64,000 bases of DNA from Lacipirellula parvula (GTDB lineage: Bacteria > Planctomycetota > Planctomycetia > Pirellulales > Lacipirellulaceae), in assembly GCF_009177095.1 (NCBI RefSeq), contig NZ_AP021861.1:4074501-4138500 (forward strand), in the 5' to 3' direction. Below the pieces are notes generated by a model. It was not told the origin of the DNA, did no database searches, and saw nothing but the letters and a program-made list of their open reading frames with translations. The position numbers and the translations under genes are program-made. The stretch's first letter is position 1. Every line of letters starts with the position of its first letter. Positions 58,376 through 60,758 of the stretch are shown here, piece by piece.

Positions 58376-59200
58376 TTAGTAACTCGGCGAATTCGCCAAC
58401 CGCTCGAGCAACGCCTCCAGCTCCGCCCCCTCCGGCAAGCGAATCTGCATCAAGTCGCGCAGCGCCTCGCGCACTTCGTCCGCCGTCCGTAGCGTCCGCC
58501 GCTCCGTGTTCCCGCCGAGATGGTGAATCGCGAGCTCGTTGTTCCGCAGCGCATACCGCACGCCCGGCGCCGGCCGCGACGCCATGAGGTGGTTCACGAA
58601 CAGCGACTCGGGATACGTCGACACATACCAGTTGCCGACCTCGTAGTCCGACGGCGCCTGCGGGTCGAGCGTGAAGCGATAGAGCGGAACCCATCCGCCG
58701 CGGATGCTCGCCTGCATGAGGTAATCGTTCTCCCAGCGAATCATGCGGAACGGTTCGTGCGGCGTCGACTGCTCGACGTCGACCGCCAACCGCAACGGTC
58801 CCGTTTGCACCATGCCGCCGAACCCAACGTCGGCGAGATACGACTCGTCGCCGAGGTCGACGCGGATGAGCATGTGCGTCCGCGGCGGAAACGCGTGCGG
58901 ATCGCCGGTGTAAACCACCCGTGCCGCGAGCCGCGTGAGCCGAAAGCCGATCGCCTCGAGCACCGCGCTGAACAATCCGTTCTGCTCGAAGCAATACCCG
59001 CCGCGCTGCTCCTCGACCAACTTCCGCTGAATTGAATCGAGATCAATCCGCACCGGGCGGCGCAACAGCGAGTCGAGATTCTCAAACGGAATCGACTCGG
59101 CATGCCGCCGGTGCAACTCGCGCAGCGTTTCCAACGTCGGCGTCCGCTCGCCGGCATAGCCGATGCGGTGGAAGTAACGGTCGAGGTTGAGGTCAGGCAT
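58376..59200 (-). CDS. nat: Arylamine N-acetyltransferase
   Basis: A 274-residue acetyl-CoA-dependent N-acetyltransferase. The catalytic triad is visible: Cys70 in RGGYCFEQNGLF, His109 in PRTHMLI and Asp124 in LADVGFGG. FENLDSLLRRP near 39 is also conserved. Length is typical (about 270-280). It is a stand-alone gene, reverse strand, followed downstream by an F-family repeat. Confidence 0.95.
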   Translation of the reverse strand: MPDLNLDRYFHRIGYAGERTPTLETLRELHRRHAESIPFENLDSLLRRPVRIDLDSIQRKLVEEQRGGYCFEQNGLFSAVLEAIGFRLTRLAARVVYTGDPHAFPPRTHMLIRVDLGDESYLADVGFGGMVQTGPLRLAVDVEQSTPHEPFRMIRWENDYLMQASIRGGWVPLYRFTLDPQAPSDYEVGNWYVSTYPESLFVNHLMASRPAPGVRYALRNNELAIHHLGGNTERRTLRTADEVREALRDLMQIRLPEGAELEALLERLANSPSY

Positions 59201-59220
59201 CGTGTCACTCCAGTGGACCG

Positions 59221-59311
59221 TGTGGGAGGCGTCTCCGACGCCGATTCCGGTGCGCCGACCGATGCACGTACGGATTGCAAAACGTTATCGGCGTCGGAGA
59301 CGCCTCCCACA
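59221..59311. repeat. B-family REPIN (GTGGGAGG ends)
   Basis: Both hairpins use the GGCGTC/GACGCC stem. Outer TGTGGGAGG and CCTCCCACA. It lies between nat and the DAHP synthase gene. Confidence 0.9.
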
Positions 59312-59334
59312 AGTCCGAAATCGGCGGTGCAACG

Positions 59335-60351
59335 CTACCCCAGCTTCCGATCCATCGCCTCGGCAATCCGCCCGCACTGCTTCATCATCTCGGCGAACTG
59401 ATCGAAGTTCATCGACTGGTAGCCGTCGCTCATCGCCTTGTCGGGGTTCGGATGGACCTCGACGATAATCCCGTCGGCGCCCGCCGCGATCGCCGCCCGC
59501 GACATCGCCGTCACCAAGTGCGTGTGGCCGGTGCCGTGGCTCGGGTCGATCACGATCGGCAGGTGCGTCTTCGCCTGCACGTACGGCACTGAGGCGAGCG
59601 GCAGCGTGAACCGCGTGTGCGTTTCGAACGTGCGGATGCCCCGCTCACAGAGCATGACGTTCGGGTTGCCGGCGTCGAGAATGTATTCCGCGGCCAACAA
59701 CCATTCATCGACGGTCGCGCTCGGGCCGCGCTTCAGCAGCACCGGCCGCGGCGATTTGCCGGCCGCCTCAAGCAACCGGTAGTTCTGCATGTTGCGCGCG
59801 CCAATCTGCAGCACATCGGCGTATTTGGAAACGAGATCGACGTCTTCGCTGGCGACGACTTCCGTCACCACAGCCAGCCCCGTCACGTCGCGGGCCGCGG
59901 CCATCAGCTTGAGGCCCTCTTCCTTCATCCCTTGGAAGCTGTACGGACTGGTGCGCGGCTTGAACGCCCCGCCGCGGAGGGCCGTCGCCCCCGCCGCCTT
60001 CACCGCCTTCGCCGAGGCGATGATCTGCTCCTCGCTCTCGACCGAGCAAGGCCCGGCCATGACGCCGATGTTGACGCCGCCGACCTTCATGCCGAGGGCC
60101 TGCACTACGGTCGGCTCCGACTTGAGCTCCCGGCTGGCAAGCTTGTAAGGCGCCAGAATCGGCAGCACTTCGTCGACCCCGGGCCCGCTTTCCAGCGACC
60201 CGATCCCAGCGATCCGCTCGTCGCCGACGACGGCGATGACGGTCCGCTCAGAACCACGAATAACGTTGGGCTTCAGCCCTTTCGATTCAACATGAGCAAT
60301 CATGGCATTGATATCCGCTTCACTGGCTGAACGTTTCATCACAACAATCAT
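59335..60351 (-). CDS. aroF: 3-deoxy-7-phosphoheptulonate (DAHP) synthase, type I-beta
   Basis: A 338-residue enzyme for the first step of the shikimate pathway. An N-terminal ferredoxin-like regulatory domain (1-75, [17 protein letters not shown]) precedes the TIM-barrel (about 95-335) with [58 protein letters not shown] and [13 protein letters not shown]. This is the AroF/AroG I-beta type with an ACT-like extension. ATG 60351 has GGAG ten bases upstream; a TTG at 60366 is an alternative. Transcription is probably controlled by the attenuator at 60458-60610. Confidence 0.95.
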
Positions 60352-60393: not shown

Positions 60394-60417
60394 GAGCCCC
60401 CTGGTTCATCCAGGGGG
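60394..60417 (-). repeat. Hairpin just before the DAHP synthase gene
   Basis: CCCCCTGG ATGAA CCAGGGGG on the minus strand, about 43 bp ahead of the start codon. D-like hairpin. It may also influence ribosome access. Confidence 0.6.
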
Positions 60418-60457: not shown

Positions 60458-60492
60458 AAAAAAGCCCCGGGCGTCCTAGGGCGCCCGGGGCT
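60458..60492 (-). terminator. Intrinsic terminator (attenuator) between the leader peptide and DAHP synthase
   Basis: Minus strand: stem GCCCCGGGCG, loop CCCTAGGA, stem CGCCCGGGGC, then TTTTTTC. It lies 32 bp after the leader-peptide stop and about 107 bp before the DAHP synthase ATG. GACGCCCG in its 3' arm can instead pair with CGGGCGTC inside the leader gene. Confidence 0.85.
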
Positions 60493-60523
60493 TCGGTTGG
60501 TTTGGTGCTTAGCGATGATTCGT

Positions 60524-60610
60524 CTACGCACAACCTCCGGCCACGACGCCCGTTCTAAAAAAGAACGCGTCGGTAAAGCTAAACCAGAAGTAGTACAGAT
60601 ACGTGGTCAT
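60524..60610 (-). CDS. Aromatic-rich leader peptide (28 codons) of the DAHP synthase attenuator
   Basis: A 28-codon frame starts at ATG 60610. Its product carries YLYYFWFSF at 4-12 and FFF at 16-18: three Tyr, one Trp and six Phe, ten aromatic residues in 28. This is the pattern of amino-acid leader peptides such as PheL. The gene stops 32 bp before an intrinsic terminator that precedes the DAHP synthase gene. Codons 20-22 (ACG GGC GTC) include CGGGCGTC, complementary over 8 bp to the terminator's 3' arm. No clear Shine-Dalgarno is seen; the frame is open further upstream, but the ATG fits best. Confidence 0.8.
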   Translation of the reverse strand: MTTYLYYFWFSFTDAFFFRTGVVAGGCA

Positions 60611-60758
60611 CACGGTTGTATTGTCGGCAGGAGATCCGGTTCTAGCAAGAGATTTTTTGCCGGGATTTTTTCGATGAAGACCGAGAGACTTGTTCCAGCA
60701 GCAACGCCGCGTTAGTGACAGCACCAAAAATCTTCACGAAAACTCGCCCGAAATGCCA

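Follow-up and report, generated by a model that had tools for sequence, protein, structure and literature searches.

A predicted leader-peptide attenuator with aromatic codons upstream of DAHP synthase in Lacipirellula parvula and related planctomycetes

Does translation of a short ORF crowded with Tyr, Phe and Trp codons decide whether transcription reaches the DAHP synthase gene behind it? The question is raised by a minus-strand locus of the planctomycete Lacipirellula parvula, within the stretch of 64,000 nucleotides that was analysed (the window). We suggest, at a probability of about 93%, that the element is a ribosome-mediated transcription attenuator coupling DAHP synthase expression to the supply of charged aromatic tRNAs. 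An earlier note on this DNA had proposed leader-peptide attenuation, which is strongly supported here by conservation and covariation, with the pairing arm of the terminator corrected. The features are collected in the table.

Table. Features of the DAHP synthase leader locus (positions in the window)
Feature	Position	Strand	Evidence
Predicted -35 element TTGCTA	60643..60648	minus	conserved spacing pattern, inference
Predicted -10 element GACAAT	60620..60625	minus	conserved position before leader ATG
Leader peptide gene MTTYLYYFWFSFTDAFFFRTGVVAGGCA, 28 codons, ATG...TAG	60524..60610	minus	ORF reading, family and order conservation, composition
Region 1 outer strand, aromatic codons ACUUCUGGUU (Tyr-Phe-Trp-Phe), pairs with 60533-60542	60582..60591	minus	MFE fold, relatives
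Region 1 inner strand CGACGCGUUCU, pairs with 60544-60549 and 60552-60556	60562..60572	minus	MFE fold, covariation
Region 2, antiterminator 5′ strand (GGGCGUC..GGC), overlaps codons past the aromatic block	60540..60551	minus	duplex with region 3
GGCCGGAGGU, outer leader hairpin 3′ strand, Shine-Dalgarno-like	60533..60542	minus	conserved despite frame/stop changes (L007, L008, L020, L022, L033)
Region 3, terminator 5′ arm AAGCCCCGGGCGCCC, common to antiterminator and terminator	60479..60493	minus	terminator scan, alignment, duplex test
Region 4, terminator 3′ arm	60462..60474	minus	covariation of terminator helix
Intrinsic terminator U-run, six T	60458..60463	minus	sequence; after hairpin in 36/36 aligned leaders
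DAHP synthase (3-deoxy-7-phosphoheptulonate synthase), AroA I-beta type, FXD regulatory domain	59335..60351	minus	PF00793 2e-76, PF18152 3e-20, TIGR01361 2.5e-117

The 28-codon frame with ten Tyr/Phe/Trp codons described previously was confirmed by ORF reading and by controls. Its aromatic fraction (10/28, 0.36) is the highest among the window's 286 ORFs of 20-40 codons that begin with ATG, where the runner-up has 0.24, and the ORF stands above all of twenty 128-kb Markov controls (maximum aromatic fraction 0.26, maximum count 8). The locus presents a short ORF rich in codons for the end products, 5′ of a gene of the pathway. Among 63 leaders, Phe together with Tyr or Trp is encoded in every one and all three aromatics in 55, and the usual block across the family relatives is Y-F-W-F-S-F-T.

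The DAHP synthase, in which PF18152 is N-terminal, starts at 60351, about 107 nt past the U-run. The same genome also encodes a paralogous DAHP synthase, a prephenate dehydratase and two trpE-like proteins; none of their genes was found to have an aromatic leader nearby, so control of this kind appears to be confined, among the genes checked, to the DAHP synthase described here. Between the terminator and DAHP synthase, the window carries a second GC-rich hairpin (60396-60416; CCCCCTGG...CCAGGGGG) that has no T-run; CCCCTGG repeats resembling it are also present in L005, possibly as a dispersed repeat. At 59200-59320 an inverted repeat of GGGAGGCGTCTCCGACGCCGAT separates DAHP synthase from an arylamine N-acetyltransferase gene (PF00797).

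The arrangement of leader and terminator was found at 37 of the 38 orthologous DAHP synthase loci of the same family, probably Lacipirellulaceae (order Pirellulales): 36 have an aromatic leader within 700 nt, one more (L009) carries it at a greater distance, beyond an inserted ORF, and L016 is the sole family locus that has no such element. The inserted ORF of L009 is small and is accompanied by a TACTCAC repeat run between the attenuator and DAHP synthase. Alignment A1 comprises 36 leaders, and covariance model R1 was searched against 246 genomes of the order, with matches in 125 of them at E<=0.01 and in 114 at E<=3e-6. Forty matches were examined. The best 26 (E no higher than 1.1e-6) are all found immediately 5′ of DAHP synthase with an aromatic ORF, and they come from about 20 families of the order. 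Weaker matches at DAHP synthase are L098, L099 and L101, the last with no recognised ORF; the remaining examined matches (mostly second hits, E 1.6e-4 or worse) do not precede DAHP synthase. Matches with E of about 5e-4 and above are mostly away from DAHP synthase and were discarded as noise. The short frame and its aromatic block, whose recurrence in relatives the earlier note had named as a check, do recur in the family orthologues and across the order.

Downstream of the block, the reading frame is less constrained than the nucleotides. The frame after the block, or the stop, differs in five leaders (L007, L008, L020, L022, L033), and the nucleotides GG(G/C)CCGGAGG..GUGCGUAA are kept. Since the frame is preserved as far as the end of the block and shifts later with the nucleotides unchanged, the downstream conservation is at the RNA level; frame slippage 3′ of the block would be anticipated if nothing beyond the block needed to be translated.

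The intrinsic terminator lies between the leader ORF and the structural gene. The six T and the GC-rich character noted before were found again, whereas the stem, given as 10 bp, measures 13-14 bp (60494-60461), with the T-run ending at 60458. In the 36-leader alignment the terminator helix has 30 two-sided compensatory cells, compared with 9.0 after shuffling (0/500), and 92% of its cells are paired.

The 8-bp match from which the earlier note had derived its competing structure is present: CGGGCGTC (60552-60545) is complementary to GACGCCCG (60475-60468) in the terminator 3′ arm. CGGGCGTC, or the neighbouring GGGCGUC...GGC, pairs equally with the 5′ arm GCC...GGCGCCC, because the 5′ arm contains the near-palindrome CCCGGGCGCCC, and the 3′-arm complementarity in the window arises only because the terminator is partly palindromic. 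In most relatives region 2 pairs less well with the 3′ arm than with the 5′ arm; the 3′-arm pairing is strong mainly where the arm is palindromic, would come too late in transcription, and was rejected. The conserved partner is the 5′ arm rather than the 3′ arm claimed, which makes the competitor a true antiterminator.

The region 2:3 duplex reaches -19.5 kcal/mol in the window. Across 36 leaders the cognate mean is -21.3 kcal/mol against -17.7 kcal/mol for shuffled partners (z -8.3, 0/20,000 permutations), with the reservation that such duplex permutations ignore shared ancestry and their z values overstate independence. In L018, for example, GCGGUG-A-CGGGGC after the block pairs with the terminator 5′ arm GCCCCG-AG-CACCGC. 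In a fixed-register alignment, antiterminator covariation did not go beyond shuffles, since the outer portion of the helix is offset by one position from lineage to lineage, and only the register-free duplex test reveals the pairing. This partner-specific 2:3 duplex and the terminator are mutually exclusive.

The aromatic codons are themselves a strand of a competing leader hairpin, a feature absent from the earlier note. Seven nt before the stop, most leaders carry GGCCGGAGG, which is complementary to the block codons UAC UUC UGG UUU, and the region folds far more stably than dinucleotide shuffles (z -6.2). The outer leader helix is paired in 91% of cells in 36 relatives, and the inner helix just past the block has 35 two-sided compensatory cells, compared with 14.7 after shuffling (0/500), in the 36-leader alignment. 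When codons 2-12 were matched with the ORF tail, cognate partners surpassed shuffled ones in the family (z -7.3) and, with the same answer, in a separate set of 27 leaders of other families (z -6.1; 0/20,000 each). The covariation looked for by the earlier note is thus present in the terminator and the inner leader helix, each at 0/500, and pairing is partner-specific in all three helices. We observed the sequence elements, their conservation and this partner-specific pairing directly.

As the aromatic codons pair with the ORF tail, the block is strand 1 of a protector hairpin, the position that the regulatory codons occupy in trpL and pheL. The protector (1:2) hairpin of the planctomycete leaders includes the regulatory codons. 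Under synonymous recoding the leader ORFs were not generally more stable (mean z -0.4), and recoding was dropped as a proof of selection on leader folding, being negative overall; the evidence for the hairpin is therefore partner-specific pairing and not overall stability. At ribosome-free equilibrium only 20 of the 36 leaders favour the leader hairpin over the antiterminator, the window sequence not being among them.

Another feature absent from the earlier note is the proximity of the promoter to the leader ATG. The pattern TTGC, 16-18 nt (mostly 17), xAxxxT occurs 5′ of nearly all 63 leaders examined, and the distance from the -10 box to the ATG is 6-10 nt in 60 of the 62 leaders in which the box was found, and 6 or 7 nt in 46. 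Because the box is so close to the ATG, the transcript is predicted to be leaderless or nearly so, with a predicted start near 60613. A generic sigma-70 scan did not call a promoter site at the window locus. The attenuator transcripts of Corynebacterium glutamicum are reportedly leaderless.

We propose the following scheme; its start of transcription, its termination step and the response to amino acids in cells are inferred. RNA polymerase would start at or just before the leader ATG, with a ribosome trailing behind. When Phe-, Tyr- and Trp-tRNAs are charged, the ribosome would reach the stop codon and mask region 2, so that the 3:4 terminator forms and the gene is off. A shortage of any aromatic tRNA would stall the ribosome in the YFWF-type block and open the leader hairpin; region 2 would then be free to pair with region 3, and transcription would continue.

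Modelling suggests that the choice of structure depends on ribosome position. With the RNA truncated behind region 3 and the ribosome represented by a masked footprint, 2:3 pairing is predicted to average 8.3 pairs for a ribosome in the block and 1.3 pairs for one at the stop codon; in 35 of the 36 leaders fewer pairs form in the latter case. With the full transcript, the terminator is the predicted equilibrium structure at every ribosome position in most of six leaders, the window included; L011, and partly L024, are predicted to switch even at equilibrium. Where the terminator dominates at equilibrium, antitermination must be kinetic, set by the order of synthesis. Antitermination in classical attenuators rests on the order of synthesis as well.

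Three other explanations were weighed. The GGAGG near the leader stop could be a Shine-Dalgarno-like site that parks the terminating ribosome over region 2, so that the element acts mainly by retention. This was suspected from the fixed distance: of 57 leaders with a GGAGG-like motif, 41 have its first match precisely 7 nt ahead of the stop. The position of GGAGG, however, is unchanged where the stop lies upstream of or directly at the motif (L007, L008, L097), and partner-specific pairing to the aromatic codons CUUCUGG, with 91% of cells paired, accounts for the motif, which makes the parking site unlikely as the main mode of action. The in-frame conservation of the aromatic codons speaks against a metabolite-binding riboswitch or a T-box in place of a translated leader, even though a structured leader with a terminator 5′ of a biosynthetic gene would suit either. 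Rfam gave no family match at gathering thresholds, and a relaxed threshold gave only sub-threshold, chance-level scores; for lack of an Rfam match the riboswitch and T-box were rejected, and we consider them the least probable of the three.

It is also conceivable, and very improbable, that the hairpin is a plain intrinsic terminator ending some small transcript, upstream or independent, and that DAHP synthase is read from its own downstream promoter, the aromatic ORF being incidental. The variable distance from terminator to DAHP synthase and the ORF-sized insert between them in L009 would fit such an arrangement; the conserved aromatic ORF, the antiterminator pairing and the constant association with DAHP synthase do not.

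In the E. coli attenuators of pheA (pheL) and trp (trpL), the regulatory codons lie in strand 1 of a protector hairpin (1:2), which competes with a 2:3 antiterminator, and 3:4 is the terminator. The planctomycete element appears to follow the same 1:2 / 2:3 / 3:4 logic. Unlike pheL and trpL, it would control the common first step of the pathway (DAHP synthase), with codons for all three aromatics, and its leader is predicted to be leaderless rather than Shine-Dalgarno-based. The closest described case, compared by function and layout only, is C. glutamicum aroR-aroF, where a Phe-Tyr-Phe leader and an attenuator lie upstream of the DAHP synthase gene (PMC11802643, PMC4046766) and are reported to respond to Phe limitation (Neshat et al. 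2014, cited in PMC11802643; PMC4046766). Both systems place an aromatic leader peptide and an attenuator before DAHP synthase; the planctomycete element differs in its phylum, in a longer block that usually includes Trp and in the conserved long leader hairpin. In Sinorhizobium meliloti trpL-trpE(G), the transcript begins at the leader ATG and the released RNA and peptide act in trans (PMC7298713). That leader-peptide attenuator is a precedent for a transcript starting at the leader ATG; it differs from the present element in responding to Trp only and in belonging to a different operon and phylum.

Neither planctomycetes nor DAHP synthase is named in the main text of a genome-wide survey of attenuators (PMC2965389), and an actinobacterial survey reported no conserved Phe/Tyr elements (PMC1262725). 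Attenuation in planctomycetes was held by the earlier note to be little described, and in keeping with this we found nothing specific on it in the openly available literature searched.

Beyond the order, a phylum-wide search under strict filters gave few matches. Three of them, L121, L124 and L125, belong to other groups and precede the same type of DAHP synthase. In family f67 of another class (L117, L118, L123, L127), an analogous attenuator precedes a different DAHP synthase, I-alpha-like as judged from sequence, and may reflect transfer or convergence. The f67 leaders have a GAGG-like sequence before the leader start and not the leaderless layout. On the reverse strand of L128, around 1500, a Phe-rich leader MHLSGRFFFFSNFTTGQVAGGGVS and a terminator precede a chorismate mutase/prephenate dehydratase/DAHP synthase fusion. 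Aromatic-rich short ORFs were also seen upstream of the same DAHP synthase type in L201, L202, L204, L207 and L209 (groups Deltaproteobacteria, Chloroflexota, Acidobacteriota and Thermodesulfovibrionales), and a Trp-Trp-Trp ORF in L203 (Enterovibrio).

Taken together, the locus is a well-supported, order-wide and apparently undescribed instance of classical leader-peptide attenuation. The odds seem about even for a wider reading: an ancient, uncatalogued, phylum-wide attenuator class in which one leaderless, self-folding leader ORF senses all three aromatics and gates entry to the shikimate pathway, and which in another class either was transferred to an unrelated type of DAHP synthase or evolved anew in front of it. 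On this wider reading, given the comparable aromatic leaders ahead of DAHP synthase genes in other phyla, attenuation of this enzyme would be common yet overlooked. Covariance model R1, with helices covarying across the order, is good enough to define a new RNA family. For a phylum in which the searched papers describe no leader-peptide attenuation, the element provides a concrete, testable circuit for aromatic amino acid synthesis; as it needs leader translation on a transcript predicted to be leaderless, it would lend itself to studies of how transcription and translation are coupled, and of leaderless initiation, in planctomycetes.
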